A stretch of 51,202 bases of DNA, taken from NCBI GenBank assembly GCA_017623705.1, contig JAGAOQ010000007.1, positions 1 through 51,202 of the forward strand, given 5' to 3'. The position numbers were made by a program, and so were the translations under genes. The DNA comes from Clostridia bacterium (GTDB lineage Bacteria; Bacillota; Clostridia; Christensenellales; UBA1242). Under the pieces are notes generated by a model that saw only the letters and a program-made list of their open reading frames with translations, ran no database searches and was not told the origin of the DNA. Numbering within the stretch: position 1 is the stretch's first letter; each line of letters starts with the position of its first letter. Shown piece by piece: positions 4,801 to 50,980 of this stretch.

Positions 4801-4931
4801 TAACTGTTGATATTACGAACCACATTGCCGAGTTTAATTAACTCGGTTTTTAATTTATTTATATCGTCCGCATCATTCAATGCGAAAACTTTGTTCATAT
4901 CGTCTTGATTCATATTTACATCATTTCCCAT
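1887..4931 (-). CDS. large repeat protein of unknown function (1014 aa)
   Basis: I do not recognise this protein. No signal peptide is seen. The first 115 residues look helical and coiled-coil-like, followed by a Gln/Thr/Pro-rich linker. A helical region follows to about residue 445. Residues about 450-500 and 560-640 are Gly/Ala/Val-rich and hydrophobic, with glycine-zipper character (for example PGVGQVVGPLVGLATVVGAG), so membrane insertion is possible. Near 660-715 a 30-residue unit (LMDTYENNRSYEDVQK...) occurs twice. The acidic C-terminal third carries four degenerate units built around PxHGQxF and VTETV. The start is taken as ATG 4931 because a promoter sits 6 nt upstream; a TTG at 4949 extends the frame but overlaps that promoter. 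It lies between tRNA-Phe and rpoB. Function cannot be inferred. Confidence 0.85.
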   Translation of the reverse strand: MGNDVNMNQDDMNKVFALNDADDINKLKTELIKLGNVVRNINSYLEELHKGKDLLQDHVDEIRKIFALRTTARQEYELANKNIVNNDFESARDNITNLGNTLINFKNIYDNLMQVIATKQNLAGTNTVNQQTTPQPNQANTSTLPPLMTKFKRFFENTPANLLRSVDFGKSLFSYFNPRMEVPSDPAELLKATKALFEIGSYQGTNFKDEDFVRFVVDKVNNDPGLMTFDMIADLVESDAYQNFGKHALSADHHAKSKFKNWVTKKSMLSKINQTQDVDVVLNADGLKRVVNKLVQEKQKGNYFKEIDQKIEQFDETYVKHQSQDALKELQANASSGRRYADAIKGVNQILCNEDTASLLNETIDSAVLSAKKPKEREALKLGIGIHTNKILCAVAQRKSWTNEELKSILIKSSVEKNAEKFEQKAEQINTQSQGEVVETKKQVNNNNDFHPVLDVAKTFGLSLVGSATISTITAIPGVGQVVGPLVGLATVVGAGVGSLVSTYQQEKQKGEVTKAQARKIAMRAGFAMVRKAVPYAVASAFGPYGRTVGASMVFAKTLFNDLARRAGVEKEEVHGIKNKIKSFGKKLKAIGHNVNLVDGFKSLTYAAAKGGAMYLGASVGAKLGSEFSPKLSEFGSKVGDKFKGIFNRQSESPVVSNDEQVLMDTYENNRSYEDVQKNYHQRYQDLCNDEDLMDTYENNRSYEDVQKIYNQRYQDDMIKNLSPESLAELDALNDKIELTPDARSTADVNNHRQYVDGVKQDWYTHAEQAKAVDLLEHAGVEDPMGVLRKLGSAARFFGGEYQSTLDHLCAGNLNNQDVENIIESLSLINEEGGLASGVTVPMPAHNQTFGGASELVTETVVLPKHGQTFENTVNEVVTESVPLPNVNHDSILQETVEDSDDYASVRMPEHGQLFGTTENSLDYQSDTSVTENVTESVTDNNFPWFSPNLNLNLSGIHFNEPVNSPAATEAVVSSPEHELSNGVTVATETSVQLPEHGQFYESATKIPLSTRDL
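2785..2950 (-). repeat. tandem 90-bp repeat within the 1014-aa gene
   Basis: Bases 2785-2860 and 2875-2950 are two copies of the same 76-nt block, offset by exactly 90 bp (30 codons), with about five differences. They encode two copies of LMDTYENNRSYEDVQK followed by a QRYQD segment. The frame-preserving period and low divergence point to a recent in-frame duplication. Confidence 0.9.
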
Positions 4932-4937
4932 ACGATA

Positions 4938-4966
4938 ATCATAGCACAAATCGCTATTTGGTACAA
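4938..4966 (-). promoter_or_regulatory. leaderless promoter of the 1014-aa gene
   Basis: Minus strand: TTGTAC (4966-4961), 17 nt, TATGAT (4943-4938) preceded by TGC (extended -10), then 6 nt to ATG 4931. Transcription should start at or within 1 nt of the A of the ATG. There is no Shine-Dalgarno sequence. Confidence 0.75.
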
Positions 4967-5023
4967 TATAATTAAATAAAAAAATTTAATTATTTTTATC
5001 TGTTACAAAGTATGACTTTTTAT

Positions 5024-7929: not shown

Positions 7930-8768
7930 AGCAATTCGTCCAAATTAAATTTACCGATTTTACCTTCACGGAATTCAGTCAAAATTAACTTAGCGGCACG
8001 TAATGTATCCAACACGCCACCACGCAACAAGCAACCACGCTTTTTAGCAATTTCTTCAAACTGGGTTACGCCAAAACGGCTTAAAACGGCATCAGGTTGC
8101 AATTTAGTTAAATCCATGAGTAATGATTGACTCAATGATACGATGTCGAGAATATCATCTTTAATTGAACCAACATAAGCTAAATTGCGTGCAATTTGTT
8201 GATTACTAAATGACGGCCACAAAGTTCCTGGGGTATCCAAAAGCCACAAATTATCAGTAATTGAAACCCACTGTTTCGTTCTAGTTACCCCTGGACGATT
8301 GCCAGTTTGTGTTTTACCTTTATTTGTCATGTTATTGATAAAAGTCGATTTGCCACAGTTTGTAACGCCAATTACTGCGACACGTAATGTCTTTGTAATA
8401 CCATGCGACAACTTAGCTTGAATACGGTCTGCCAATAATTTTTGTAAAGCATTGATGACTGGTTGTGTGCCACCACTCTTTACAGAATTACGAGTAATTA
8501 CATCGAACGGTGTTTTTAATTGCAACGACTTAATAAATTTTTCTTTCACACCATGAACAGCTAAATCAATTTTATTCAACACAAACAACACTGGTTTACG
8601 CCCAACAAAATCATCAAATTGCGGGTTAATACACGATTGTGGGCAACGAGCATCAACAACATAAATAATGGCATCACAGTTTTTCAATTCGGCATCAATC
8701 ATTTTCAAAGTTTGTGCCATGTGTCCTGGGAACCAATTGATTTGGATTTTTGACAAAGAATTTTCCAT
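7926..8768 (-). CDS. rbgA: ribosome biogenesis GTPase RbgA (YlqF)
   Basis: Circularly permuted GTPase that assists late 50S subunit assembly. The N-terminus has WFPGHMAQT; the G4 motif NKIDL (near residue 66) precedes the G1 P-loop GVTNCGKST (near 134) and G3 DTPG, confirming the permuted order. 280 residues, near the usual 280. I take ATG 8768 as start because a TATGAT -10 box ends 6 nt upstream; the GTG at 8771 would add one residue. rplS, which normally precedes this gene, is replaced here by an acyltransferase gene. Confidence 0.94.
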   Translation of the reverse strand: MENSLSKIQINWFPGHMAQTLKMIDAELKNCDAIIYVVDARCPQSCINPQFDDFVGRKPVLFVLNKIDLAVHGVKEKFIKSLQLKTPFDVITRNSVKSGGTQPVINALQKLLADRIQAKLSHGITKTLRVAVIGVTNCGKSTFINNMTNKGKTQTGNRPGVTRTKQWVSITDNLWLLDTPGTLWPSFSNQQIARNLAYVGSIKDDILDIVSLSQSLLMDLTKLQPDAVLSRFGVTQFEEIAKKRGCLLRGGVLDTLRAAKLILTEFREGKIGKFNLDELL

Positions 8769-8774
8769 CACACC

Positions 8775-8783
8775 ATCATACCA
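8775..8783 (-). promoter_or_regulatory. extended -10 of rbgA
   Basis: Minus strand TGG-TATGAT (8783-8775), 6 nt before ATG 8768. No good -35 is seen, but the TGn extension can compensate. It implies a leaderless mRNA and a separate promoter downstream of the acyltransferase gene. Confidence 0.55.
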
Positions 8784-8812
8784 TCAAAACACAAATTTAG
8801 AAATAAGATAAT

Positions 8813-9901
8813 TTAGGATTTAAATAATTTTTTCACCAAAGGTAACCGATACAATATCATACTGGAAAGTAATGACATTATTAAGGCATAAAGGAAGAAA
8901 ACTAATTCTCCAATACCCATTGGAAATGGTGACAAAATATATGGAAATTTCGAAATAAGTAAAATCCAAAAAGGATGAACAAGATAAATACCCAAACTAT
9001 ATTTAGAAACACAGTTAATAATTTTATTATTTTTAATTTTAATTTTATTCGTCGAAAAAATCTTAATTATTAATATAGACTCAAAAAATGATAAAAAATC
9101 AAAATAGTAGTTATCAAACCAGCATGCAATAAAAACTCCAATAAAACCAATGACACCAATCAAATAAATGTATAGCTCTTTTATCAAATTTGTTTTTGCT
9201 ACAAAATAGCCCAATAAATATACAAAAAGATACTCATTTAAAATATTAAACCCAAATAAACATATTTTATTAGGAATAATCCAATTTGTCGCAAATATAA
9301 ATATTAAAACAAATATTACAGTTTCTTTATCAGCATACTCTACAAATTTCCGCAAAATTGGAGTAATAATATACAAACCTATAAGCATTACAACATACCA
9401 CATATGGTTAAAATAATTAATCCTTCCATTAAAAAAAGAAAATATACGTGATAAATCAACAAGACTCGTTAATAACCATTGTTTAACATTTGAATCGTTC
9501 CATAATAATTTATAATTATTGAATAAATTTATACCTAAACCAAAAATAAAATAAATTAAAGTCAATTTAAAAATCTTTTTAAGTATTTTTGATAATGTTA
9601 CATTATGTTTCGGGTCCAACATTAATGCTCCACTAATCATAATAAAACATGGTACGGCGAAACGCACAAAAGGCTGCAATATAACTTTATCAAGTACTAC
9701 TCTTTCAATTTTGTTTAGTAAATTAGTGCTTTCAAATAAAGTAATAATGTGCAGCATAACTACTGCCATGCAAGCAAAAGCACGCAAAACGACTATCCAT
9801 TCGATTTTTTCGCTTGTTGGCTTTTTTATTTCATTGACAATCGGCTCATTGGTACTGATAGAATTTTTACTTTCCTCATCGACACTTGTTTTAATTTCCA
9901 T
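8813..9901 (-). CDS. membrane O-acyltransferase (acyltransferase 3 family)
   Basis: 362-residue integral membrane protein of the acyltransferase-3 (OafA/WecH) family, which transfers acyl groups to surface sugars. Near residues 36-52 is WIVVLRAFACMAVVMLHI, with the family Arg and His. Then FAVPCFIMISGALML follows (WecH-like). About ten membrane segments are visible, ending in LPLVKKLFKS. The substrate cannot be told. Base composition is clearly more AT-rich than rbgA and trmD on either side, and the gene breaks a conserved ribosome-maturation cluster, so horizontal acquisition is likely. Confidence 0.9.
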   Translation of the reverse strand: MEIKTSVDEESKNSISTNEPIVNEIKKPTSEKIEWIVVLRAFACMAVVMLHIITLFESTNLLNKIERVVLDKVILQPFVRFAVPCFIMISGALMLDPKHNVTLSKILKKIFKLTLIYFIFGLGINLFNNYKLLWNDSNVKQWLLTSLVDLSRIFSFFNGRINYFNHMWYVVMLIGLYIITPILRKFVEYADKETVIFVLIFIFATNWIIPNKICLFGFNILNEYLFVYLLGYFVAKTNLIKELYIYLIGVIGFIGVFIACWFDNYYFDFLSFFESILIIKIFSTNKIKIKNNKIINCVSKYSLGIYLVHPFWILLISKFPYILSPFPMGIGELVFFLYALIMSLLSSMILYRLPLVKKLFKS

Positions 9902-9906
9902 ACAAT

Positions 9907-9935
9907 TTTATATAACAAGCACGGAAAGAACGCAA
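9907..9935 (-). promoter_or_regulatory. leaderless promoter of the acyltransferase gene
   Basis: Minus strand: TTGCGT (9935-9930), 17 nt, TATAAA (9912-9907), 5 nt, ATG 9901. No Shine-Dalgarno site. Confidence 0.7.
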
Positions 9936-11096: not shown

Positions 11097-12832
11097 TACT
11101 TAAATTCCTTCACTTGTTTAGTAATCATTTCGATGAAAGCTTCCAATGACATTTGTCCCAAATCTTGACCTTCACGAGTACGGACAGCAACAGTATTCGT
11201 TTCTTGTTCTTTGGCACCAATGATTAGATTGTAAGGAATTTTTTTCAAAGTCGATTCACGAATTTTCAAACCAATTTTTTCGTTACGCAAATCAGTTACC
11301 GAGCGAATATTTGCATTTAACAAAGCACGATTAATTGATGCACAGTATTCGTCTTGTGCATTTGTGATATTCATAATACGAACTTGCGTTGGCGACAACC
11401 AAACTGGTAAAGCACCCATAGTCTTTTCAATCAACATTGCCAAAGTACGTTCATAACAACCGATTGAAGAACGGTGAATCAAATATGGTTTTGCTTTCTT
11501 GCCGTTTTCATCAATATAAGTCAAACCAAAACGTTCTGCCAAAGCAAAGTCTAATTGAATCGTAAATAAGGTGTCTTCTTTGCCGTAAGTATTCTTGGCT
11601 TGAATATCAATTTTAGGACCATAGAAAGCTGCCTCACCGTCTGCCTCAACAAATTTTAAGTTATTACGTACCAAGGCATTACGAATTTCGTCTTGACTCC
11701 ATTTCCATGCGTCAGGCAAATCAATGTATTTATCTTTGTTTGCCGGATCCCATTTAGATAAACGAATCGTTACGTCGTCTTGCATGTTTAACACTTTCAA
11801 GAAGTAGCTTGTTAATTCCATACATTCATCAACGACTTGTTGAATTTGGTCTGGACGCACAATGATATGACCATCACTCAAAGTATACTCACGCAAACGA
11901 ATTAAGCCGTGCATTTCACCACTGTTTTCGTTACGGAATTGTTTAGCCGTTTCTGCATATCGAATTGGCAAATCTTTGTAAGAACGTAATTCACTACGAT
12001 ATAACAAAATGTGCATTGGACAAGTCATTGGACGCAATGCCATTAAATTTTCATCTAAGACTTCATCACCAATCAGGAACATTGAATCTTTGTAGTGTTG
12101 CCAATGTCCACTAACTTTGTACAAATCGTTTTTAGCAAATGACGGAGTTTTAACGTGCATGTAACCACGACGGATTTCTTCGTCTTCAACAAAACGTTGC
12201 ATAATACGTAAAATCGTTGCCCCCGCAGGAGTAAATAAAGGTAACCCTTGACCGACCAATTCAGACGATACATAGTAACCTAGTTCACGACAAATTTTAT
12301 TGTGATCACGTTTCTTCACTTCTTCTTGCCATGCGTTATACGCCTCTAATTCGCTCTTGCTTGCGAATGCTACACCGTAGATACGAGTTAACATTTTATT
12401 CTTCTCATCACCACGCCAGTACGCACCAGTGATTTGCGTCAACTTAAACGCTTTAATTTTCTTCACATACTCAACGTGAGGACCGGCACACAAATCAGTA
12501 AAATTACCAATCGTATACATTGTAATCGTTTGTCCTCGGGGAATATCGTGTAATAACTCGGCCTTATAAATTTCTTTATTTTTATTGATTAAGCGAGCAG
12601 CTTCGGTACGTGTTACTTCCTTACGTTCAACCTTAAAATTCTCTTTAATAATGCGAGACATCTCAGCTTCAATCTTCAACAAATCGTCGTCTTTAATCGG
12701 TGTCGCAAAATCAAAATCATAATAGAATCCCGAATCTGTGGCAGGACCAATCGCCAATTTCGTGTTCGGGTAAATGTTTTTTACTGCATAAGCTAATACA
12801 TGTGCAGCCGTATGATTTAATACTTTATCCAT
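11096..12832 (-). CDS. thrS: threonyl-tRNA synthetase without the TGS domain
   Basis: Charges tRNA-Thr. The protein starts directly with the editing domain: HTAAH at residues 7-11, then CAGPHVE near 115-121. The class II catalytic core follows (RPMTCPMHI motif 2 region, then FAERFGL-type motif and HRSSIGCYERTLAML motif 3), ending in an anticodon-binding domain. Usual bacterial ThrS is about 640 residues and begins with a TGS domain of about 60; here there are 578 and no TGS. The start is set at ATG 12832 because a promoter lies 7 nt upstream. The longer frame from 12874 adds 14 hydrophobic residues across that promoter and is unlikely. Confidence 0.95.
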   Translation of the reverse strand: MDKVLNHTAAHVLAYAVKNIYPNTKLAIGPATDSGFYYDFDFATPIKDDDLLKIEAEMSRIIKENFKVERKEVTRTEAARLINKNKEIYKAELLHDIPRGQTITMYTIGNFTDLCAGPHVEYVKKIKAFKLTQITGAYWRGDEKNKMLTRIYGVAFASKSELEAYNAWQEEVKKRDHNKICRELGYYVSSELVGQGLPLFTPAGATILRIMQRFVEDEEIRRGYMHVKTPSFAKNDLYKVSGHWQHYKDSMFLIGDEVLDENLMALRPMTCPMHILLYRSELRSYKDLPIRYAETAKQFRNENSGEMHGLIRLREYTLSDGHIIVRPDQIQQVVDECMELTSYFLKVLNMQDDVTIRLSKWDPANKDKYIDLPDAWKWSQDEIRNALVRNNLKFVEADGEAAFYGPKIDIQAKNTYGKEDTLFTIQLDFALAERFGLTYIDENGKKAKPYLIHRSSIGCYERTLAMLIEKTMGALPVWLSPTQVRIMNITNAQDEYCASINRALLNANIRSVTDLRNEKIGLKIRESTLKKIPYNLIIGAKEQETNTVAVRTREGQDLGQMSLEAFIEMITKQVKEFK

Positions 12833-12839
12833 AACAAAC

Positions 12840-12867
12840 AGTATAACACTAAATCCAAATAAATCAA
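12840..12867 (-). promoter_or_regulatory. leaderless promoter of thrS-rimM-trmD
   Basis: Minus strand: TTGATT (12867-12862), 16 nt, TATACT (12845-12840) preceded by TGT, then 7 nt to ATG 12832. No T-box-like leader is possible because there is no leader. Confidence 0.65.
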
Positions 12868-12927: not shown

Positions 12928-13599
12928 ATGAAGATTTCTACTGATGAACGCTTTTACACTTGTCTGCAACATTTAGCAAAAAAATTTGGCGGACAAATTA
13001 CAAACAACCAGGACCGTTATTTTTTGCAATTAAAAGGAAGAGTCAACAAGTATCAATTATTCGATAGCATCGTAAATCAAATTGTAACCAACATGAAAGC
13101 TTTTTATTTGAACCAAAAACTTAAAATAAAAAACAAAACTTTGGTTAAGGTTTTAATCAATTACGATAAGAAATCCGACATAGTAATTGCTGGCTCTTTG
13201 TTGAGCATTACACCGACAATTTTATTGGATTCAATTTATGATTTTTGTTTAACACGGCTGAAATGTCGTTGGAACGAAGTAATTCAATTAGTTAATGAAA
13301 ACTACATACAATTAACACAGAAAGTCTTATTTAACGAGCTGTTACGCTTTTTAATCGTTAATATGGATTGTCGTATGCCCGAAGCACATGTCATGGTAAT
13401 CAACCATCAAACAACCATTTGCGACAAAAAAATGCAACCAATTCCCCGCAACGAAGAAGATATTATCAACGCCTTAATTGATTTTGCTCCACGTCAAATT
13501 TATATTCACAACGACCGTGAACTAACCCAAGATGTGGTTGAGCAAATTGAAACATTATTCCCAAACTGCGTTTGCATTGAATACAACGCAGTGTTATAA
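12928..13599 (+). CDS. ytxC: YtxC-like putative sporulation protein
   Basis: 223 residues. The C-terminal part EEDIINALIDFAPRQIYIH then ETLFPNCVCIEY matches the YtxC family pattern (ISALI-LAPK-I-IH). YtxC is listed as a putative sporulation protein of unknown mechanism. It lies beside thrS, as ytxC does in Bacillus, which supports the call. Two ATGs are in frame; I prefer 12928 (MKISTDERF) because TAGACT (12916-12921) ends 6 nt upstream of it. The other ATG at 12922 touches the -10 box. The ricT promoter lies in its last 10 codons. Confidence 0.75.
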   Translation: MKISTDERFYTCLQHLAKKFGGQITNNQDRYFLQLKGRVNKYQLFDSIVNQIVTNMKAFYLNQKLKIKNKTLVKVLINYDKKSDIVIAGSLLSITPTILLDSIYDFCLTRLKCRWNEVIQLVNENYIQLTQKVLFNELLRFLIVNMDCRMPEAHVMVINHQTTICDKKMQPIPRNEEDIINALIDFAPRQIYIHNDRELTQDVVEQIETLFPNCVCIEYNAVL

Positions 13600-13600
13600 T
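13572..13600 (+). promoter_or_regulatory. leaderless promoter of ricT
   Basis: TTGCAT (13572-13577), 17 nt, TATAAT (13595-13600), 5 nt, ATG 13606. This near-consensus promoter sits within the 3' end of ytxC. Confidence 0.8.
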
Positions 13601-13605
13601 GCACT

Positions 13606-14232
13606 ATGCAAACTTATCATGTAAGAGTATTTAATAAAACGCAAACAACTAAATTTGACAGCGACATAGCGGACTTAAAGCCGAACGAATATGTAATTGT
13701 TGAAACCGATACAGGTGCTGAATGGGGCGTGGTTGCCAATGAAGGCATAAAAAAGAAAAACCACGAACCAAACAATGCACAAATTTTTCGACGTGCTACT
13801 GCCAAAGATTTAAGCCAAATTAACCTACTATTAAAGTCCGCAGAGTTCGCCAAAGAAAAAGCCATTGCAATGGTAAAACAATTCAAACTTGATATGAACA
13901 TCATGTCTGCTTACTACACTTTTGACGCCAGCAAAGTTGTGATTGATTTTTCTGCTGAACAACGAATCGACTTCCGTGAGTTAGTACGCAGTTTAGCCAG
14001 TGCTTTACGAACTCGCATTGAATTGCATCAAGTAGGAGCAAGAGATGAAGTCAAGGCACTAGGAGCGTTAGGTGTCTGTGGACAAGAATGTTGTTGCAAA
14101 CGTTTTGCACACAGCTACCCTGATGTATCTATTAAAATGGCAAAGCAACAAAACCTATCTTTAACACCTGACAAAATTAACGGTATTTGCGGACGATTAA
14201 AATGTTGCTTGTCATACGAAACGGAAAAATGA
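13606..14232 (+). CDS. ricT: PSP1-domain protein RicT (YaaT)
   Basis: RicT is part of the RicA-RicF-RicT complex that carries Fe-S clusters and, in B. subtilis, helps RNase Y and the sporulation phosphorelay. 208 residues, shorter than the Bacillus protein (about 275). The PSP1 core VGARDEVKALGALGVCGQEC is present, with the cysteine clusters GVCGQECCCKRF and GICGRLKCCLSYE that bind the cluster. RNase Y is also encoded in this window (34.8 kb), so both partners exist in this genome. Confidence 0.92.
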   Translation: MQTYHVRVFNKTQTTKFDSDIADLKPNEYVIVETDTGAEWGVVANEGIKKKNHEPNNAQIFRRATAKDLSQINLLLKSAEFAKEKAIAMVKQFKLDMNIMSAYYTFDASKVVIDFSAEQRIDFRELVRSLASALRTRIELHQVGARDEVKALGALGVCGQECCCKRFAHSYPDVSIKMAKQQNLSLTPDKINGICGRLKCCLSYETEK

Positions 14233-14760: not shown

Positions 14761-15939
14761 CTAAATAAAAAAACGCAGGAAATGGTTAGTACCTTTTGAA
14801 ACTAGCGGAAAAACTCTCATAACTTGAGAGTTTTTTGTTTTAAAGTGTTTTTCAAATTGTAATTTTTTGTTCATAACAGTTTCTTTAGTTAAAAACGGAT
14901 AATCCACAGAATAACAAGTTTTTTCGATATATGGCTTTAAATTATCATAAGTAACATATTCATCAATTACTTTTGTAGGCAATGTGTTCAAGTTTTCAAC
15001 ACCGAGTTTTTTGCGTAAATCCGCTTTAAAAGGTATAATAACTTCTGAACAATATGTATCATTAAAAGAACCACCTTCTTTTGTTGGTTCATCTGCAATC
15101 CCAAACAATAAATGTTGATTAGGGGCATATACTTTGGATACCAGCGGTAACTTACATGTTCCATTAAACCATTCTTTATGCTCACGACAAATTTGAAGCA
15201 TTAAATCGAGCATTATATCAAAATTCTTTTCCGTACAATAAGTCAACATTGTATCGTTACGCCTATCCCTAGTAGTAAATTTCACATACGGTCGATAGTT
15301 TTCATCACCAGGATATGCAGAGCATTTTCTAAATAACTCAGTAGCAATGGAAGTTGCATTTCTCGGTGTGGTGTTAACGTAAATCCGTTTTGTGATATTT
15401 CCAGGGTGTCCAAATGGATATAGATGGATAAAACAATCAATTATCTCATCACTGAGTCCCACCTCCATATTAGCCCACCTATCAAATCTTTCATTAGTCA
15501 ATGCGTTCATCGCACTGGCTACTCCATCTTGCACAAACTCAAAATATCTTCCACATGCTTTTCCTTCAGGATGAACATAGTGAAAAGGATAATTTTCTTT
15601 ATCTTCTGGACTAGCTAGAAAGAAGTTATATGCGAGCATTTCCTTTTCTTTGGATTGGTTCGCCCCTAATTGATTATACATGGAAAAGAAATCATCAACA
15701 CCAACATTAATTTCCTTATCTTTATAATAAAGTACCATGGTATCCGCAACATTACGATAAAAAGTTGCCAATTGCTTAACGGTTAATTCTTTTTTAGTAG
15801 CGTCCGGATTGCTTTGTAAAAAATCATATTCCGCCTTGTGCGGAGTTTTGATACTATATTTAATATAGTCAATAATGTTTTGGGCAGTTACAGGATATTG
15901 GCTTTCATGCGCCATGATTCTTTTGAAAATATCTTCCAT
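14761..15939 (-). CDS. uncharacterised 392-aa protein, weakly HopA1-like
   Basis: Not confidently recognised. The N-terminal half is helical. The centre has KRIYVNTTPRNATSIA (near 190-205), YVKFTTRDRRNDTMLTY (near 221-237), then LPLVSKVYAPNQHLLFGIADEP and SFNDTYCSEV. This order of an RIYVN strand, an RRND segment and a GIADEP-SF segment recalls HopA1-domain proteins, which include phospho-threonine lyase-like enzymes; this is inference from memory. There is no signal peptide or membrane segment. The last 15 residues (PLVSKGTNHFLRFFI) are encoded by a 44-nt sequence that recurs inverted at 16266-16312. A leaderless promoter precedes ATG 15939. The gene end overlaps the nrdR terminator. Confidence 0.75.
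   Translation of the reverse strand: MEDIFKRIMAHESQYPVTAQNIIDYIKYSIKTPHKAEYDFLQSNPDATKKELTVKQLATFYRNVADTMVLYYKDKEINVGVDDFFSMYNQLGANQSKEKEMLAYNFFLASPEDKENYPFHYVHPEGKACGRYFEFVQDGVASAMNALTNERFDRWANMEVGLSDEIIDCFIHLYPFGHPGNITKRIYVNTTPRNATSIATELFRKCSAYPGDENYRPYVKFTTRDRRNDTMLTYCTEKNFDIMLDLMLQICREHKEWFNGTCKLPLVSKVYAPNQHLLFGIADEPTKEGGSFNDTYCSEVIIPFKADLRKKLGVENLNTLPTKVIDEYVTYDNLKPYIEKTCYSVDYPFLTKETVMNKKLQFEKHFKTKNSQVMRVFPLVSKGTNHFLRFFI
14767..14810 (+). repeat. conserved 3' element, copy 1
   Basis: 44 nt starting 15 nt after the nrdR stop. It shares AAAAAAACGCA at its start and TTTTGAAACTAGCGGAA at its end with copy 2 (16266-16312, opposite strand); the middle differs and is 3 nt shorter here. A terminator hairpin follows directly in both copies. 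It also encodes the C-terminus of the convergent 392-aa gene. Confidence 0.85.
14811..14840 (+). terminator. terminator after nrdR
   Basis: Stem AAACTCTCA (14811-14819) / TGAGAGTTT (14825-14833), loop of 5, with six Ts ending at 14836. It lies inside the coding end of the convergent 392-aa gene. Confidence 0.85.
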
Positions 15940-15945
15940 AATTAA

Positions 15946-15974
15946 ATTATAAATATTTCCAACACATTTAGCAA
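15946..15974 (-). promoter_or_regulatory. leaderless promoter of the 392-aa gene
   Basis: Minus strand: TTGCTA (15974-15969), 17 nt, TATAAT (15951-15946), 6 nt, ATG 15939. No Shine-Dalgarno site. Confidence 0.8.
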
Positions 15975-16316: not shown

Positions 16317-17369
16317 TTATTGTGCTTGTGTTTTTGCTTTTAATTCTGCCAAGCGTAAAGCTTCCACCATGTCTATAATTTCACCGTCCACAAATCTAGT
16401 TAAATTATACTCCGTGCGGTTAATACGGTGGTCTGTTACCCTGCCTTGCGGATAATTATAAGTTCTAATGCGTTCACTACGGTCGCCTGTCCCAATTTGA
16501 TCATGTCGTGCCGATGCGTATTTTTCATCTTCCAAACTTTGATAATAATGTGCCAGTTTGGAAACCAAAACCGTCATTGCTTTTTCACGGTTGGCAAGTT
16601 GACTACGCCCGTCCTGACAAGTTACTACCGTATTTGTTGGTAAGTGCGTGATACGAATTGCACTTTCAGTTTTGTTAATGTGTTGTCCACCCGCACCAGA
16701 TGCACGATAAACATCAATACGTAAATCTTTTTCGTCAATTTGGAAGTCAACAGTTGTGGCTTCGGGTAAAACTGCAACAGTTGCGGTAGATGTATGAACA
16801 CGACCTTGCGACTCAGTTTCAGGAACACGTTGTACACGATGAACACCGCTTTCAAACTTGAACTTTGAAAAAGCACCCTCGCCTTTAACCAAGAAAGTTA
16901 CGTTTTTCACTCCACCGATACCATTTTCTTCAATATCCGTAATTTCAATTTTGAAGCCCAAATTTGTTGCATATAACGAATACATACGCAACAAAACCGA
17001 CGCAAATAAACAAGCTTCATCACCACCCGCAGCAGGACGAATTTCAATAATAACATTCGCATCATCACGCTCGTCCTTTGGTGTCAAAAGCATTTGTAAT
17101 TCTTCGGTTGTCGATGCTAATAATTTTTGATTTGCTGCAATTTCTTCTTTGGCTAACTCGGCCAATTCTGGATCAGTAATTTCCTGTGCGGCAGAAATAT
17201 CTTTCAATAATTTTTGATATTTGCGATAAGCATTGACTGTTGGCTCAATTTTAGCAACTTCCTTTGAAATTTGTGAGTAACGTGCAAAATCATTAAAAAC
17301 TTCGGGCAAAGTTAATTGCTCCAAAAGTTGCACATACTTTTCTTCTAAAACACTTACTTCTTCAAACAT
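16317..17369 (-). CDS. prfA: peptide chain release factor 1
   Basis: Recognises UAA and UAG stop codons and releases the peptide. 350 residues, typical. The catalytic GGQ is in ASGAGGQHINKTESAIR (near 228-244), and HRVQRVPETESQGRVHTS marks class RF1. It follows prmC, which methylates the GGQ glutamine, by a TAATG overlap. The operon order is rpmE-prmC-prfA. A terminator follows at 16224-16260. Confidence 0.96.
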   Translation of the reverse strand: MFEEVSVLEEKYVQLLEQLTLPEVFNDFARYSQISKEVAKIEPTVNAYRKYQKLLKDISAAQEITDPELAELAKEEIAANQKLLASTTEELQMLLTPKDERDDANVIIEIRPAAGGDEACLFASVLLRMYSLYATNLGFKIEITDIEENGIGGVKNVTFLVKGEGAFSKFKFESGVHRVQRVPETESQGRVHTSTATVAVLPEATTVDFQIDEKDLRIDVYRASGAGGQHINKTESAIRITHLPTNTVVTCQDGRSQLANREKAMTVLVSKLAHYYQSLEDEKYASARHDQIGTGDRSERIRTYNYPQGRVTDHRINRTEYNLTRFVDGEIIDMVEALRLAELKAKTQAQ

Positions 17370-18211: not shown

Positions 18212-18417
18212 TTTGATTGAGCATAACGTTTGTTGAATTTGTCAACACGACCTGCCGTATCAACAATTTTTTGTTTTCCAGTATAGAATGGATGACATTT
18301 TGAACAAATATCAATTTTTACAACACTACCTTCTTTGGTTGTTCCGCAAGTAAATTTATTACCGCATGCACATTCGAATTCGGTTTCGTGATAATTAGGA
18401 TGAATATTTTCTTTCAT
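18208..18417 (-). CDS. rpmE: ribosomal protein L31
   Basis: 69 residues, zinc-binding (C+) type: Cys at 16, 18, 38 and 41 (ECACGN and [11 protein letters not shown]). The [11 protein letters not shown] start and HPFYTGKQK box are family signatures. First gene of the rpmE-prmC-prfA operon and leaderless by promoter position. Confidence 0.97.
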
Positions 18418-18424
18418 AGAGAAA

Positions 18425-18453
18425 ATATTAGCACGTAAAACTTAACTTGTCAA
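18425..18453 (-). promoter_or_regulatory. leaderless promoter of rpmE-prmC-prfA
   Basis: Minus strand: perfect TTGACA (18453-18448), 17 nt, TAATAT (18430-18425) preceded by TGC, 7 nt, ATG 18417. The -35 overlaps the stop region of murC. Confidence 0.85.
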
Positions 18454-20941: not shown

Positions 20942-20968
20942 TGTTTTACCTCCTTTTATGGTCTAACG

Positions 20969-23065: not shown

Positions 23066-23070
23066 AAAAC

Positions 23071-34498: not shown

Positions 34499-34505
34499 AT
34501 CAAAC

Positions 34506-39111: not shown

Positions 39112-39117
39112 AAAGTA

Positions 39118-39126
39118 ATTATAACA
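39118..39126 (-). promoter_or_regulatory. extended -10 of polA (leaderless)
   Basis: Minus strand TGT-TATAAT (39126-39118), 6 nt before GTG 39111. No clear -35. It overlaps the end of the upstream membrane-protein gene. Confidence 0.6.
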
Positions 39127-39783: not shown

Positions 39784-40074
39784 TTAGTTATCTCCTCCGA
39801 TTTTAATTTTTGTATAAGGTTGACGATGACCGTATTTTTTGCGTACATTATTTTTTGGTTTATATTTGAAACCATTAATTTTGTCACCTTTTCCATGTTC
39901 CACGATGGTGGCTGTTACTTTACCAGGTTTAGTATCAACTTTACCGTTGTCATAAGACATCACAGTAGGCACAGTAACTTTGTCGCCAACGTTACCGTCG
40001 ATTTTTTCCACTATAACTTCGTCGCCTGGTTGCACGCGATATTGTTTACCACCTTGCATAATAATTGCGTTCAT
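39784..40074 (-). CDS. rplU: ribosomal protein L21
   Basis: 96 residues: [23 protein letters not shown], then [28 protein letters not shown], the L21 signature. First gene of rplU-rpmA and leaderless by promoter position. Confidence 0.97.
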
Positions 40075-40081
40075 AACTTTT

Positions 40082-40110
40082 ATAATAAAATAATTTCACA
40101 CTTTTGTCAA
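40082..40110 (-). promoter_or_regulatory. leaderless promoter of rplU-rpmA
   Basis: Minus strand: TTGACA (40110-40105), 17 nt, TATTAT (40087-40082), 7 nt, ATG 40074. Confidence 0.85.
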
Positions 40111-41796: not shown

Positions 41797-42723
41797 TCAA
41801 GCAAGTAACGACTCCAAAATTTGCACGGCGTTAGTTGCCGCACCTTTTCGCAGATTATCACTAACCGTCCACAAATTGATTGTATTTGGTTGCGATGAAT
41901 CTAAACGCACACGACCAACATAGACTTCATCATGTCCTGACACAAAGGTTGGCACAGCATAATCTTCACAATAAACAACGCCTGGGGCTTGTGATAAAAT
42001 TTCTTTCACACGTTTCAAATCTGGTTGCTGATAAAATTCTACATTGATTGCTACACAATGACAGTTTGCTACGGGAACACGTGCCGCCGTTGCTGAAATT
42101 GCTAAATCTTCCCGCCCTAAAATTTTACGAGTTTCGTAAATCATTTTAGCTTCTTCTTTGGTGTTACCATCGGGCAACAACACGTCTATATCAGGCAACA
42201 CATTATTAGTAATTGGATATTTGAAGTGCGGATTACGACCAGCTCCACTGATTGCTTGATACGTTGCATAAACTATCCTTTTGATTTTATAAACACGTTC
42301 TAACGGCGACAATGCCACCACAGCACCGATTGTCGAGCAATTCGGGTTCGCAATCAACTTGCTTTGACCAATGCTAGCTAAATTGATTTCAGGCACGACC
42401 AAAGGCACTTCGGGTTGCAAACGGAAGTAACTACTGTTATCAATTACGGTTGTTCCAGCATTGACAAAACGACTTGCCCATTCACGTGCAACATCACCAC
42501 CCGCCGCAAACAAAGCAAAATCGGCTTTAATTTCTTTGACCCGAGATACAGTCAAACTTTCCAAAACATATTCTTCACCATTCACAATTACTTTTTCGCC
42601 AGCGTGTGCTTCACTAGCAAATAAAAAATATTCAGCATCAATGCAACGCTCTTGTAAAACTTTTAACATCATTTCACCGACCAAACCAGTTGCACCGACC
42701 ACAGCAATTTTAGTTGTTCTCAT
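41797..42723 (-). CDS. asd: aspartate-semialdehyde dehydrogenase
   Basis: Reduces aspartyl phosphate to the semialdehyde for lysine/DAP, threonine and methionine synthesis. 308 residues, slightly short (about 330-350 usual). NADP site VVGATGLVGEMML (8-20), catalytic Cys in NPNCSTIGAV (near 130), and ATAARVPVANCHC. A TATATT -10 box (42735-42730) is 6 nt before ATG 42723, without a clear -35, fitting a leaderless mRNA. Confidence 0.95.
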   Translation of the reverse strand: MRTTKIAVVGATGLVGEMMLKVLQERCIDAEYFLFASEAHAGEKVIVNGEEYVLESLTVSRVKEIKADFALFAAGGDVAREWASRFVNAGTTVIDNSSYFRLQPEVPLVVPEINLASIGQSKLIANPNCSTIGAVVALSPLERVYKIKRIVYATYQAISGAGRNPHFKYPITNNVLPDIDVLLPDGNTKEEAKMIYETRKILGREDLAISATAARVPVANCHCVAINVEFYQQPDLKRVKEILSQAPGVVYCEDYAVPTFVSGHDEVYVGRVRLDSSQPNTINLWTVSDNLRKGAATNAVQILESLLA

Positions 42724-42768
42724 AGCAATAATATATTAAAATGAAGCTAAACTTGTGATGGGGGAAAT

Positions 42769-44298: not shown

Positions 44299-44328
44299 TT
44301 GCCAAAAATAAATTTCCAAAGGTACAAT
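44299..44328 (+). promoter_or_regulatory. leaderless promoter of rnhA
   Basis: TTGCCA (44299-44304), 18 nt, TACAAT (44323-44328), 5 nt, ATG 44334. Confidence 0.6.
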
Positions 44329-44333
44329 AAGTC

Positions 44334-44780
44334 ATGGAAAATTCGATTGCTGTTTATACTGATGGTGCTTGTAGTTATAACCCCGGACCTGGTGGCTGGG
44401 GGGCAATTATTTTGCGTAATAACCAAGAAACCGAACTATCTGGCTTTGAACCAGACACAACTAACAACCGTATGGAATTAACAGCAGTGATTCAAGGTTT
44501 AACCGCACTACAAGATACAACAGCATCGGTAACGCTCTATACCGATAGTCAATACATTGTAAATGCAATCAATCAACACTGGCTAGATAATTGGCAAATT
44601 AAAGGTTGGGTTAATGCCAGCAAAAAACCTGTTGCTAATCGTGATTTATGGGAAGAAATTATTCAACTGAATAAAAAGTACAAACCGACTTATGTGTGGG
44701 TGAAAGGACACAGCACAAACGAATACAATAATCGCTGTGATGCATTAGCTGTACAAGCAATTAAAAATAATGTTAACTAA
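44334..44780 (+). CDS. rnhA: ribonuclease HI
   Basis: Cleaves RNA in RNA-DNA hybrids. 148 residues, typical bacterial type without a hybrid-binding domain. Catalytic acids: Asp10 (YTDGACSYNPGPGGWG), Glu48 (NNRMEL), Asp70 (YTDSQYIVNAI) and Asp near 134 (NNRCDALA). The WVKGHS motif carries the conserved His. Confidence 0.97.
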   Translation: MENSIAVYTDGACSYNPGPGGWGAIILRNNQETELSGFEPDTTNNRMELTAVIQGLTALQDTTASVTLYTDSQYIVNAINQHWLDNWQIKGWVNASKKPVANRDLWEEIIQLNKKYKPTYVWVKGHSTNEYNNRCDALAVQAIKNNVN

Positions 44781-45399: not shown

Positions 45400-46477
45400 G
45401 ATCTCCTCCTTCTTCCGAATACGGGCTGGTTTCACGTAATGATAATGGTGTTAACGGAACTAGCTCATTGCTTGCCTGTGAAACACTGTAATGATAAATC
45501 GGCTTAGCATCACCAGTTACAACCTCTGGCGTAATCGTGATTTTCTTCAAGTTCTTTTCATTAGGAATATCGTACATGATTTGTGTCATAAAGCGTTCAC
45601 AAACTGTACGCAAACCACGTGCCCCTGTTTGTAGTTTTTCGGCGATTTCGGCAATCTTATCAATACTTGCTTCGTTAAATTCAACTGCAACATTTTCAAC
45701 AGCTAACATTTTTTCATACTGTGAAATTAAAGAATTTTTGGGTTTTACAAGTGCTTCTTTTAATGCAGCGTGATTCAATGCTTGCAAAACAACAACCATC
45801 GGGAAACGACCACAAAACTCGGGAATCATACCAAAGGTCGCAAAGTCATCGGCAACAACTTGTTTCAAGACGTCAAAATCACTTAACAAAATTGTATCAC
45901 GTTCCCCCATACGAGTACGAACAATACCTGGCAAATCCACGAACGCACCGCCACAAATAAACAAAATATTATTCGTGTTCATTTTAACAGTCTGCCCGTT
46001 ATAAACTACATCGGCGATAGTACCTTCAACAATCTTTAACATGATTTGTTGGATACTTTCACCTTTCAAGCGATTTACACCCGTTACTAACTTATCAATT
46101 TCATCTAAGAAAACAATCCCCATTTCCGCTGCGTGAACATCACCATTGGTTTTATCCAACAACTTAACAAGCATTTTATTGATTTCATCACTAATATTAT
46201 CCGAAGCAACGATTGCTGTCGCATCTGCGGTAACAAAAGTTGTATTCAAAATTTTTGCCAATGAAGTAACAATCAATGTTTTACCCGAACCAGTCGGTCC
46301 TAGCATCATAATATTACTTTTTTTAACTTCAACATCGCTACCACCTGCTTGTGCAAACTGCACACGTTTATAGTGATTATAAACAGCCACAGCCAAAACA
46401 CGTTTTGCATCGTCTTGCCCAATCACATATTCGTCAAGTTTACCAACAATTTCAGACGGCGTATAAAGATTTATCAT
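45383..46477 (-). CDS. ClpX-like AAA+ ATPase lacking functional loops
   Basis: 364 residues, ClpX fold: YVIGQDDAKRVLAVAVYNHYKR, Walker A GPTGSGKT (60-67), Walker B GIVFLDEIDK (120-129), FICGGAF, IPEFCGR and sensor 2 GARGLR (285-290). Compared with ClpX, the N-terminal zinc domain is absent, the pore-1 loop GYVG is DNIS (93-96), the RKH loop region is shortened without RKH, and the IGF loop that docks ClpP is missing. It should still bind ATP but probably not unfold substrates for ClpP. Start ATG 46477 has a leaderless promoter; the frame from 46501 overlaps it. Operon partner: a MORN protein. Confidence 0.85.
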   Translation of the reverse strand: MINLYTPSEIVGKLDEYVIGQDDAKRVLAVAVYNHYKRVQFAQAGGSDVEVKKSNIMMLGPTGSGKTLIVTSLAKILNTTFVTADATAIVASDNISDEINKMLVKLLDKTNGDVHAAEMGIVFLDEIDKLVTGVNRLKGESIQQIMLKIVEGTIADVVYNGQTVKMNTNNILFICGGAFVDLPGIVRTRMGERDTILLSDFDVLKQVVADDFATFGMIPEFCGRFPMVVVLQALNHAALKEALVKPKNSLISQYEKMLAVENVAVEFNEASIDKIAEIAEKLQTGARGLRTVCERFMTQIMYDIPNEKNLKKITITPEVVTGDAKPIYHYSVSQASNELVPLTPLSLRETSPYSEEGGDLGKGY

Positions 46478-46483
46478 ACTCCT

Positions 46484-46512
46484 ATGATAAATGAAAAACA
46501 AAAAACTACCAA
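46484..46512 (-). promoter_or_regulatory. leaderless promoter of the ClpX-like gene
   Basis: Minus strand: TTGGTA (46512-46507), 17 nt, TATCAT (46489-46484), 6 nt, ATG 46477. Confidence 0.75.
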
Positions 46513-48499: not shown

Positions 48500-50280
48500 T
48501 AAATTTTCAAAATCTCCACAAAAGCTTCACTTGGTACTTCGACGTTACCGAGCATACGCATTTTCTTTTTACCTGCTTTTTGCTTTTCTAATAGTTTCAT
48601 CTTGCGGGTAATATCACCGCCATAACATTTTGCAAGCACATCTTTACGTAACGCTTTAACGGTTTCACGAGCAATAATTTTACCACCGATGGCAGCTTGA
48701 ATTGGAACTTCAAACATTTGTCTAGGGATAATATCTTTTAAGCGTTCCGCCAAAGCTTTGCCTTTTTGGTAAGCTACGGACTCATGCACGATTAAGGATA
48801 ACGCATCGCAAATTTTCCCGTTGAGCAAAATATCCATTTTTACCAATTTTGAAGTTTGGTAACCCGCAGGTTCATAGTCCAAACTAGCGTAACCATGACT
48901 GCAACTTTTCATGCGATCAAAGAAATCATAAACAATTTCATTCAAAGGAATTTGGAAGTTTAACAACGTACGATTATTTTCCAAATGTTGCATGTCAACA
49001 AAGACACCACGTTTATTTGTTGCCAAATCCATTAACGCACCGATGTATTCTGGTGGCGTCCACATTTTCAAAGCAACGATTGGTTCTTCGTAATAATCAA
49101 TCTCTGCTGGCTTCGGTAAGTTACTAGGATTTGAAACGTTCAAAGTTCGACCATCAACAGTATGTACAATATAACTAACACTAGGTGCAGTTGTAATAAT
49201 ATCCAAATTAAATTCACGTTCCAAACGTTCAGTAATGATTTCCATGTGTAGCAAACCCAAGAAACCAACACGGAAGCCAAACCCCAAGGCAGTACTTGTT
49301 TCTTTTGTAAATTCCAAACTGGCGTCATTAAGTTTTAATTTTTCCAAGGCATCTTTCAACTCGCCATACTTATCGCCCGCAATTGGATAAATCCCCGTAA
49401 ACACAACAGGTAAAACTTCTTTATAGCCCGGTAAAGCCAAACACGGTTGTTCCGCCGAAGTGATTGTATCCCCAATTTTAATTTCACTAACAGCTTTAAT
49501 GCTAGCACAAAGATAGCCAACGTCCCCCGCACTTAATTCAGCACATGGCGTTTGCTTCGGTGTAAAGAAACCAACTTCGGTAACTTCAAATTCTTTACCA
49601 GCTGCCAACATTTTGATTTTATCGCCAACTTTGACTTTACCGTCAAACAAACGCACTAAACAAACCGCTCCCAAAAAGTTATTATAATAACAGTCGAATA
49701 ACAACGCTTTCAACGGTTGATTTTCGTCGCCAGTAGGTGCTGGTAACAACTCAATTACTTGTTCTAAAACTTGGTCAATGTTTGTTCCGTTTTTCGCCGA
49801 GATAGCTGGTGCTAAGCCCGCAGGAACACCAATCACTTGTTCAATTTCGGTACGTACCGCTTCCACATTAGCGGCAGGCAAATCAATCTTATTGATAACC
49901 GGCAAAATTTCCAAATTGTTATCAATCGCCAAATAAGCATTAGATAGAGTTTGAGCTTCCACACCCTGCGTCGCATCAACAATTAAAATTGCCCCTTCGC
50001 AAGCGGCTAACGAACGTGATACTTCGTACGTAAAGTCGACATGTCCAGGAGTATCAATCAAATTCAAAATATACTCTTCGCCCTTATATTGATAACGCAT
50101 ACGTGTCGGCGTGAGCTTAATCGTAATGCCACGTTCACGTTCCAAATCCATACTATCTAAAAGTTGTGCTTCCATATCACGTTTAGCCACAGTGTCGGTA
50201 ATTTCCAGTAAGCGGTCAGCCAAAGTCGACTTACCGTGGTCAATATGAGCAACGATACAAAAGTTACGAATATGTTTCAC
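48499..50280 (-). CDS. lepA: elongation factor 4 (LepA)
   Basis: Ribosome-bound GTPase that affects initiation and back-translocation. 593 residues, typical. G1 AHIDHGKST (9-17), G3 DTPGHVDF, G4 NKIDLP; the C-terminal LepA domain includes [23 protein letters not shown]. Start GTG 50280 is leaderless. The start region forms one arm of an inverted repeat with the recO start. Confidence 0.98.
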
Positions 50281-50429
50281 GCATACATTTTAACGTTTTT
50301 TTTCGTCGAGTGCAATGTAAAGATTGTAATACCCAATTTCGCCTGTTGCCGTAAATAATTGCCATAACATATCTTTCAGTTCCATAATCTTATTATTTGC
50401 GTTAAAATGGAAATGTATGCGTGAAACAT
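50272..50429. repeat. inverted repeat at the divergent lepA and recO starts
   Basis: Arms 50272-50294 and 50401-50429 are the same 23 bases in opposite orientation, except for a 6-bp insertion (50410-50415) in the recO arm. Each arm contains a TAAAAT -10 box and the first codons of its gene (TATGCGTGAAACAT). The 106 bp between the arms hold no gene; apart from the lepA -35 I see nothing in it. Confidence 0.85.
50287..50315 (-). promoter_or_regulatory. leaderless promoter of lepA-hemW
   Basis: Minus strand: TTGCAC (50315-50310), 17 nt, TAAAAT (50292-50287), 6 nt, GTG 50280. Confidence 0.75.
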
Positions 50430-50980
50430 TTGTCGAAGTTGGTATTATCATCAAAGCGGTTCGCAGTGGCGACTACGACGCACGTTTAGGCATTTTTAAC
50501 GGCAAAGGTTTACAATGGCGGACGATAAAAGGTGTTTACCGACCCAAAGCAAAATTTGCGGCTTTGTGTGGTCTATTCACAGTCGCAGAATTTACAATTT
50601 CAGGTCAATCAATCACAGGGATTAACGTTTTGGTTGCTCCGTATAATCTTGCCAGAGATATTAACCGCTACTATTTAGCGTGTAGTTTTGCCGATGCTTT
50701 ATTACATTTGGATTTCGTCGAACAAGCTCCACAAGCACTAATTACCGCAGTGAACGCTTACACGGCACTTGCCACAACCAATGAAAGTTGCTATCTCATT
50801 TTTTTAGATTTTTACTGTAAAGTTTTAGAAATACTTGGCTACCAAATTGATTTGGATTATGAAACAGCTAACTTAACACACAGTCAAGCCAAAAAATTAG
50901 TACAACAAGTTATTGAAGCTTACCGTAACCATGTTGACTATGAAATTCAATTTTGTGAAAAATTATACCTTGACACTTGA
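50417..50980 (+). CDS. recO: RecO-like DNA repair protein, short
   Basis: 187 residues against about 240-255 usual. The N-terminal OB part (EVGIIIKAVRSGDYDARLGIFNGKG, then IKGVYRPKAKF) and the helical part (NRYYLACSFADALLHLDFVEQAP, LIFLDFYCKVLEILGY) fit RecO, which anneals DNA and loads RecA with RecR. The C-terminal zinc-finger cysteines of many RecO proteins are not present. A TAAAAT box lies 8 nt before ATG 50417. The gene end overlaps galU by 18 nt (convergent). Confidence 0.75.
   Translation: MRETFVEVGIIIKAVRSGDYDARLGIFNGKGLQWRTIKGVYRPKAKFAALCGLFTVAEFTISGQSITGINVLVAPYNLARDINRYYLACSFADALLHLDFVEQAPQALITAVNAYTALATTNESCYLIFLDFYCKVLEILGYQIDLDYETANLTHSQAKKLVQQVIEAYRNHVDYEIQFCEKLYLDT

Follow-up and report, generated by a model that had tools for sequence, protein, structure and literature searches.

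The window analysed here is a stretch of 51,202 nt from a Clostridia bacterium (Christensenellales; UBA1242; assembly GCA_017623705.1, contig JAGAOQ010000007.1), in which many genes carry a promoter -10 box only a few nucleotides before the start codon. Such sigma-A-type boxes, 5-8 nt before about a quarter of the starts in the clade to which this bacterium belongs, very probably mark leaderless messenger RNAs (mRNAs), which may be tolerated through a remodelled initiation factor 3 (IF3) and, in two of four sampled genera, a shortened YchF protein. The window is contig 12 in a 21-contig assembly of 635 kb that is 73.7% complete, and 632 kb of this genome, with a G+C of 39%, was analysed (one 2.7-kb contig reads N). 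The nearest named records to its LepA, at 66-71% identity, are uncultured Clostridia, Firmicutes and Christensenella-like assemblies. Genes were called with our own coding-potential script, which gave 564 genes, 562 of them with a usable upstream region and 559 in the scored runs. Gene names are those of an earlier sequence-only reading of the window or our own assignments, unless a profile match is named. The evidence for leaderless starts is sequence prediction throughout.

Starts were scored with a log-odds model over the extended -10 box, the -35 box, the spacer between them and the gap (box end to start codon), with start choice included. For the gene-by-gene scores in the window, training used only the other contigs, and no start-codon penalty was applied. 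The features are given below, with gaps and spacers in nt and SD for a Shine-Dalgarno motif.

4929..4966, minus strand: 1014-residue gene, ATG at 4931, -10 TATGAT at 4938-4943, -35 TTGTAC at 4961-4966; score 7.5, gap 6, spacer 17, no SD.
8766..8803, minus strand: rbgA, ATG at 8768, -10 TATGAT at 8775-8780, weak -35 TTTCTA at 8798-8803; score 6.7, gap 6, spacer 17, no SD.
9899..9935, minus strand: acyltransferase (Acyl_transf_3 by profile), ATG at 9901, -10 TATAAA at 9907-9912, -35 TTGCGT at 9930-9935; score 5.0, gap 5, spacer 17.
12830..12867, minus strand: thrS, ATG at 12832, -10 TATACT at 12840-12845, -35 TTGATT at 12862-12867; score 7.0, gap 7, spacer 16.
13572..13608, plus strand: ricT, -35 TTGCAT at 13572-13577, -10 TATAAT at 13595-13600, ATG at 13606; score 10.4, gap 5, spacer 17.
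15937..15974, minus strand: 392-residue gene, ATG at 15939, -10 TATAAT at 15946-15951, -35 TTGCTA at 15969-15974; score 9.2, gap 6, spacer 17.
17367..17407, minus strand: putative prfA, ATG at 17369, -10 TACAAT at 17379-17384, -35 TTGGCA at 17402-17407, within the end of prmC; score 9.4 (window held out), gap 9, spacer 17.
18415..18453, minus strand: rpmE, ATG at 18417, -10 TAATAT at 18425-18430, -35 TTGACA at 18448-18453; score 9.0, gap 7, spacer 17.
19785..19798, minus strand: murC, GTG at 19787, -10 TATATT at 19793-19798, no clear -35; weak, score 4.4 without and 2.6 with the codon penalty.
23063..23099, minus strand: MreB-like gene, GTG at 23065, -10 TATAAT at 23071-23076, -35 TTGCCA at 23094-23099; score 13.6 without and 12.1 with the codon penalty, gap 5, spacer 17.
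23958..23997, minus strand: rplM, ATG at 23960, -10 TATACT at 23969-23974, -35 TTGACA at 23992-23997; score 11.7, gap 8, spacer 17.
34496..34534, minus strand: mtaB, ATG at 34498 (the second ATG), -10 TATGCT at 34506-34511, -35 TTTACA at 34529-34534; score 8.0, gap 7, spacer 17 (the ATG at 34510 scores -5.5).
39109..39123, minus strand: polA, GTG at 39111, -10 TATAAT at 39118-39123, poor -35; score 6.2 without and 4.7 with the codon penalty, gap 6.
40072..40110, minus strand: rplU, ATG at 40074, -10 TATTAT at 40082-40087, -35 TTGACA at 40105-40110; score 10.3, gap 7, spacer 17.
42721..42735, minus strand: asd, ATG at 42723, -10 TATATT at 42730-42735; score 4.7, gap 6.
44299..44336, plus strand: rnhA, -35 TTGCCA at 44299-44304, -10 TACAAT at 44323-44328, ATG at 44334; score 10.5, gap 5, spacer 18.
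46475..46512, minus strand: ClpX-like gene, ATG at 46477, -10 TATCAT at 46484-46489, -35 TTGGTA at 46507-46512; score 7.2, gap 6, spacer 17.
50278..50315, minus strand: lepA, GTG at 50280, -10 TAAAAT at 50287-50292, -35 TTGCAC at 50310-50315; score 8.1 without and 6.6 with the codon penalty, gap 6, spacer 17.
50403..50419, plus strand: recO, -10 TAAAAT at 50403-50408, ATG at 50417; score 4.7, gap 8.
20570..20961, minus strand: rpsF, a contrast case, SD AAGGAGGT before the ATG at 20941; score -7.9, no promoter at leaderless distance.

The sequence-only reading had named 13 genes with both boxes, and all of these score 5.0-13.6, with gaps of 5-8, spacers of 16-18 and no SD at working distance (the ClpX-like gene does have an AGGAG, just 1 base from its ATG). 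Among the seven it had listed with a -10 box only, rbgA, murC, polA, asd and recO reach a score of at least 4, whereas ytxC (2.3) and spmA (0.7) do not. The six genes it had taken as leadered, rpsF, rny, nrdR, pgsA, spoIIAA and rpoB, all have an SD motif and score below 0. A model trained without the window gives 19 of the 48 genes there a score of at least 4 (null 2.4; Poisson P about 2e-11) and 14 of the 48 a score of at least 6 (null 0.6). The gene prfA (window 16317-17407, minus strand), absent from the earlier list, has its strong promoter 9 nt upstream, inside the end of the preceding gene, which suggests a predicted leaderless transcript beginning within an operon.

A strict box test, with the T, A and final T of TAtaaT fixed and at most one mismatch inside, was applied to all 562 genes of the window's genome, using dinucleotide shuffles as the null for box counts. 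Boxes lie 4-9 nt before the longest start in 104 cases, against 21.7 in shuffled sequence; the absence of such a genome-wide excess over shuffled controls had been named beforehand as refuting, and the proposal withstands this test. The counts at gaps of 4, 5, 6, 7, 8 and 9 nt are 13, 24, 24, 20, 18 and 5, giving a peak at 5-8, and outside the peak the mean of 3.8 boxes per position is close to the shuffles (3.6). The peak is kept when starts are chosen by coding score (111 versus 22.6 expected). RNA polymerase begins transcription 6-9 nt downstream of the -10 box, and with gaps of 5-8 the +1 would thus fall on the first base of the start codon. Genes that come first in their transcription unit hold most of the boxes (72 versus 13.7) and operon-internal genes few (13 versus 5.0). 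With the full-genome model, which learned from strict promoters of this genome itself, 165 of 559 genes are called leaderless at a score of at least 5 (null 14.7), including 114 of 282 unit-first genes; operon-internal genes give 24 calls in 195. Subtracting the shuffled null leaves a predicted leaderless share of about 27% of genes. SD motifs are present at 157 of 562 starts versus 12.8 expected, so that two start modes are predicted to coexist, as had been proposed. The 39% G+C of the genome raises the question of a chance pattern in A/T-rich DNA, to which we give practically no weight: no peak of this size appears in shuffles, with wrong spacers, in relatives of 25-32% G+C or in 41 Bacillales loci.

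The boxes have the character of promoters. A -35 box (at least 4 of 6 matches to TTGACA) lies at a spacer of 17 in 42 of the 104 boxes and at 18 in 21, while any other spacer from 8 to 29 accounts for only 1-9 of the 104; a comparison set of 208 boxes at gaps of 30-90 has no comparable -35 peak (19 at spacer 17, 7-18 elsewhere). Promoter pairs with a spacer of 16-18 number 68 at gaps of 4-9, versus 15 and 13 with wrong spacers. In hexamers and spacing this matches the sigma-A promoter layout (TTGACA/TATAAT, 16-18 nt apart). A pyrimidine just before the +1 is typical of transcription starts, and 80% of the 98 box genes have one at base -1, versus 35% of 183 box-free operon-internal genes (Fisher 4e-13, with counts rounded from the percentages). 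An SD motif precedes 3 of the 98 box genes versus 154 of 464 others (P 8e-12), and TTG starts are likewise scarce among box genes (3/98 versus 85/464, the second figure being inflated by start miscalls).

Because an ungapped profile of promoter conservation is blurred by insertions and deletions, gapped alignments were used for 51 same-genus ortholog pairs, drawn from 26 genes. Identity is 0.91 in the -35 and 0.89 in the -10 hexamer; it is lower upstream (0.83) and in the spacer (0.77), and falls to 0.56 between the -10 and the start. The Wilcoxon P is about 1e-6, for pairs that are not independent. The leaderless call (score 4) is kept in 48 of the 51 pairs, with the gap moved by 1 or 2 bases in 17. 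Ungapped comparison of 60 pairs of SD genes gives a conservation of 0.78-0.88 at positions -10 to -4. Since identity between -10 and start is the lowest of all, leaderless genes vary most freely just where an SD would sit. Outside the core genus promoter conservation is too thin to use (2 pairs in G003, 1 in G015 and 5 in G012). It has been proposed that the A/T-rich bias before non-SD starts in some phyla may have causes other than leaderless promoters (in the part of PMC5397173 bearing on this point), and by analogy the box might be a translation signal or an unstructured patch on mRNAs with ordinary leaders. We regard this as highly improbable, because a -35 sits at a spacer of 17-18, base -1 is mostly a pyrimidine, and both hexamers are conserved whereas the bases from -10 to start are not. 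Judged from sequence, these starts carry a predicted promoter rather than a ribosome signal.

Orthologs of the leaderless genes were compared under the rule that at least 60% of the gene be aligned and the alignment start within 15 residues. In the clade, 70 of 96 orthologs of the leaderless genes in the window's genome are called leaderless, 2 have an SD and 24 neither. Elsewhere the same genes are mostly SD-led: 23 of 35 in other family members (3 leaderless), 17 of 27 in the order (0 leaderless) and 101 of 143 in other named loci (2 leaderless). LepA weighs heavily in these counts, because the LepA search brought in the named loci; without it, 65 of 88 clade orthologs are leaderless, and an SD is found in 21 of 30 (family), 13 of 16 (order) and 53 of 75 (other named loci).

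If start codons had been miscalled, the true starts would lie downstream, with leaders and an SD. Scoring did shift certain starts in the window, by between 1 and 14 codons (14 for thrS, 4 for mtaB), and by pair only 66 of 174 offsets to the SD-preceded start of outside orthologs are within 3 residues, with 106 at 4-10, compared with 59 of 77 within 3 for SD control genes; without LepA the figures are 60 of 109 and 47. By gene, however, the median offset is within 3 residues for 23 of 33 genes, 14 of them exact, with 10 at 4-10, and the box peak holds under two start rules. The offset was measured to the nearest SD-preceded start, a choice that favours small values. Wholesale miscalling is thus very unlikely, and the start calls are fair rather than perfect.

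The distribution among relatives was then considered at score level, with 20-84 genes sampled per genus member. Nine clade relatives give 147 leaderless calls in 536 genes (nulls about 12.5), versus 46 in 682 (about 14) for ten others. Within the clade, seven genus members have 4-19 calls in 20-84 genes each, G015 has 32 of 90 and G012 29 of 74. Outside it the counts are 4/78 (G010), 4/65 (G011), 11/86 (G013), 10/80 (G014), 4/77 (G016), 2/66 (G017), 0/52 (G018), 5/61 (G021), 4/46 (G023) and 2/71 (G026). These counts on long stretches leave out G004, G007, G019, G020, G022, G024, G025, G027 and G028. The same pipeline found no excess in 41 Bacillales loci (15 of 717 versus a null of 18.5), in agreement with the earlier statement that leaderless starts are unusual for Bacillota, nor in nine other Clostridia loci (4/128 versus 3.4) or nine Bacilli or Mollicutes-like assemblies (5/159 versus 4.2); eight mixed loci, mostly Proteobacteria, have 4 boxes versus 1.1 expected. 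The clade is a single branch with a long stem, supported at 100/100 on LepA + RpoB and at 99 on LepA alone. The LepA + RpoB tree leaves out G004, G007, G009 and G022, which have partial sequences, and G009 was counted as clade by its genus label; the position of G013 differs between the two trees. The proposal that leaderless mRNAs are a main mode of start is supported: they are predicted to be one of two main modes here, concentrated in one clade and not Bacillota-wide.

From sequence, then, the boxes, the -35 spacing, the -1 pyrimidine, the lack of an SD, the selective conservation within the genus and the concentration in one clade are established, and at this level the predicted leaderless mode is secure.

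The initiation machinery of the clade was examined for changes that accompany the trait. An intact anti-SD (GGATCACCTCCTTT) closes the 16S rRNA of the clade genomes G003, G005 and G012, as it does in G013 and G023, so that damage to the anti-SD was rejected as the cause in the three clade members whose 16S end is available; the window's own assembly has no 16S match. None of the 10 genus assemblies (74-90% complete) has a multi-domain S1 frame; they show just one or two S1 matches, on separate contigs. Such a frame is also missing in G012 and in the weakly or non-leaderless G010, G011, G013, G014 and G016, and the leaderless G015 has three S1 domains in a single 350-residue frame. Loss of bS1 was therefore rejected, as the state of S1 does not track the trait. 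Loss of bS21 was rejected too (8 of 10 genus members have it, among them the window's genome), as were loss of IF3 (found in 7 of 10, the three misses being assemblies in 120-150 contigs) and loss of whole YchF (present in 10 of 10). The sequence-only reading had pointed to both S1 and IF3, and it is IF3 that is altered.

IF3 was identified by a match to its C-terminal domain (PF00707) in G000 and aligns to a solved IF3 over residues 3-178. All 12 clade proteins examined carry 5 additional residues in the segment that directly precedes the C-terminal strand, and all 12 have Ala in place of Cys in the PPVC motif; neither change occurs in any of 34 others. Among the best 120 of 514 relatives in a wider search, 118 have the full insert and 2 an insert one residue shorter, and Ala is present in 116. 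An extra residue in the R-x-x-GR loop was discarded as a marker, since the loop has the same length in G010, G011, G049 and G050. The infC gene itself (in G000 on contig C17, 304-840, plus strand, locus L379) has ATT at the expected start behind a strong SD (AAGGAGGT), as it does in G001 and G005, while in G012 and G015 the expected start is ATG. With a clear SD and an ATT start in those three genomes, IF3 itself looks SD-led; autoregulation of infC through a rare start codon is known from E. coli.

YchF keeps its P-loop domain and C-terminal domain (PF06071), but the helical domain (1jal residues about 140-199, some 60 residues) is missing in G000 (contig C3, 57156-58070, minus strand, locus L349), G001, G002, G003, G005, G006, G007, G008 and G012, nine clade genomes of which all but G012 belong to the genus. 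G015 retains it, as do 11 of 11 non-clade relatives. In the 72 family genomes with a YchF match (78 searched), a one-piece match of the short form was found only in G000, G005, G012 and G065. Among the 120 relatives listed in a YchF search, 32 are short, 3 are intermediate (25, 33 and 39 residues: P0185, P0232 and P0239) and 19 were unparsed; the intermediate lengths suggest that the helical domain may have been lost stepwise. Genera g1 and g4 both have the short form, and g7, which the tree places as sister to g4, has the long one, a pattern that suggests repeated loss.

Further genomes extended the association. Clade-type IF3 was found in G035, G067 and G089, and short YchF in G065 (genus g4, no IF3 match). 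At the ychF and infC loci alone, 7 of 15 genes in these four genomes are called leaderless (null 0.4), whereas the 35 other family genomes yield 4 of 132 (null 2.1; P 7e-6). The test is a small one, with 3 of 6 genes in G035, 2 of 5 in G089, 1 of 3 in G067 and 1 of 1 in G065.

In E. coli, YchF is reported to interact with IF3 and to inhibit leaderless translation, which rises in its absence (PMC8138138). E. coli IF3 is inhibitory on leaderless mRNAs at raised levels, stimulatory at low ones and needed under some conditions, according to the relevant section of PMC9031893. We offer the role of the two factors in the clade as a hypothesis. Transcription would begin with the first base of the start codon, leaving the ribosome to initiate at the 5' end of the leaderless mRNA, probably by the known 70S route, with the conventional SD route kept alongside on an intact anti-SD. 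Leaderless starts may have become tolerable through the remodelled IF3, with its insert of 5 residues late in the C-terminal domain and its Cys-to-Ala change in PPVC, and in two of the four sampled genera loss of the YchF helical domain may have added to this tolerance. In its strong form, the proposal is that a quarter of the clade's genes went over from SD-led to leaderless starts while these gatekeepers were being rebuilt, first by the IF3 insert and later by the YchF loss, so that 5'-terminal starts were no longer rejected and promoters slid onto the starts; we hold this to be plausible, though short of probable.

It is evenly balanced whether, instead, the mRNAs are leaderless and the changes in IF3 and YchF are passengers, with genome compaction having pushed promoters onto starts that an ordinary ribosome can cope with. 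The clade genomes are small (0.6-1.2 Mb), leaderless translation occurs in E. coli (as described in part of PMC9031893), and the IF3 change maps to a single stem with no independent repeat. Against this stand family members of like size, G010, G013, G014 and G016 (0.9-1.1 Mb), which are less leaderless (4/78, 11/86, 10/80 and 4/77). In G010, G013 and G014 boxes are instead in excess 20-39 nt upstream (26, 52 and 40 versus 15.2, 27.9 and 22.1), and in G016 only slightly so (34 versus 28.3). That the same YchF domain was lost in g1 and g4 and kept in g7 also speaks against mere passengers.

Several observations weigh against the main explanation. The IF3 change and leaderlessness fall on one stem branch, so that their link is confounded, with no independent repeat. 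Long YchF is found in the leaderless G015, in g7 (G015, G067, G089) and in g27 (G035), and a loss confined to two of four genera slightly lowers the odds that the factors acted as gatekeepers. Nor is the trait all-or-none. The excess in the ten non-clade relatives (46 versus about 14 shuffled) comes mainly from G013 (null 0.9) and G014 (null 1.8), and eleven near named loci, L023-L033, give 19 calls in 183 (null 3.9). Promoter pairs at gaps of 4-9 exceed those with wrong spacers in G014 (6 versus 1 and 1), G016 (5 versus 1 and 0) and L023-L033 (7 versus 2 and 2), and in the last group 9 of 24 orthologs are leaderless and 7 SD-led (2 and 6 of 14 without LepA). Within the clade, the simple box test gives no better than P 0.015-0.023 for G001, G002 and G009, and there is no clear excess of paired -35 boxes in G001 (2 versus 3 and 1), G008 (4 versus 1 and 3) or G009 (0 versus 2 and 0). 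The weak excess in G013, G014 and L023-L033, about 8-12% of genes, could be a forerunner or separate small gains. Because of it, the trait may have begun before the clade stem and then expanded on it.

Leaderless genes are best known from other groups. Actinobacteria resemble the clade in having a -10 just before the start, no SD and SD-led genes alongside; they differ from it in that the clade has altered IF3 and YchF. Deinococcus-Thermus likewise has a large leaderless share, and the IF3 chain of PDB 5lmn, which we take to be that of T. thermophilus, also reads PPVA and DYS, as the genus does, so that convergence is possible from the sequences. It is an unrelated lineage, and its YchF relative PDB 2dby, presumably a T. 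thermophilus protein, has 368 residues. In the parts of the survey of Zheng et al. (2011, PMC3160421) on these groups, leaderless genes average 19.2% in Actinobacteria, occurring in 86 of 89 genomes, and 39.4% in Deinococcus-Thermus, and the actinobacterial signal is TAnnnT in high-G+C genomes, whereas here a full TATAAT with a -35 is found in a Clostridia clade with mostly SD-led relatives. For Firmicutes, the corresponding part of the survey gives leaderless genes in 56 of 209 genomes, with an average of 4.2% (range 2.4-16.6) and 18.3% in five Mycoplasma. These Lactobacillales subclades and Mycoplasma belong to the same phylum and have TAtAAT just before starts (same section of PMC3160421), but the clade here has about 27% of genes, with -35 boxes. 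The main text of PMC3160421 contains no word beginning 'clostridi'. RNA-seq of M. gallisepticum includes nine transcripts that appear leaderless (in the relevant part of PMC4245973), and the predicted leaderless class of the GeneMarkS-2 survey is a further near system. YchF of E. coli is inhibitory, whereas here it is present with the helical domain missing in two genera; the E. coli protein is reported to crosslink to uS5 through its N-terminus, not the helical domain. Our searches of one literature library found no paper joining 'leaderless' with Christensenellales, with metagenome-assembled genomes and Shine-Dalgarno, or with transcription start sites, Clostridia and gut bacteria, and we claim nothing wider.

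Other features of the window are recorded here. The 1014-residue leaderless gene (1887-4931, minus strand) adjoins rpoB and has no Pfam match, nor has the 392-residue gene (14761-15939). A 3153-residue open frame (24028-33489, minus strand), about 18% of the window, has no Pfam match either; close to its start lies a hydrophobic stretch, a possible signal peptide. The bS21 (rpsU) match (34561-34725, plus strand) is divergent from the leaderless mtaB. PolA of the genus (37027-39111, minus strand) has 694 residues, with matching 5' nuclease and polymerase parts and a missing middle stretch, which we assume to be the 3'-5' exonuclease-like domain; the frames of most relatives reach 836-904 residues owing to that stretch.

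The open question that these results address is why some bacterial lineages use many leaderless mRNAs while close relatives use few. Leaderless initiation is already known; what is new is its predicted scale in a Clostridia clade, its low level in like-sized relatives and the matching change in an initiation factor. On one branch, the predicted leaderless share climbs to about a quarter of genes, starting from a few percent; the relatives sampled have SD-led orthologs, and the climb coincides with defined changes in IF3 and, in part, in YchF, the factors singled out by work in E. coli. Gene callers tuned to SD motifs may misplace starts in these genomes. If IF3 and YchF did act as gatekeepers, a shift in the mode of initiation would be readable together with the factor changes that permitted it.

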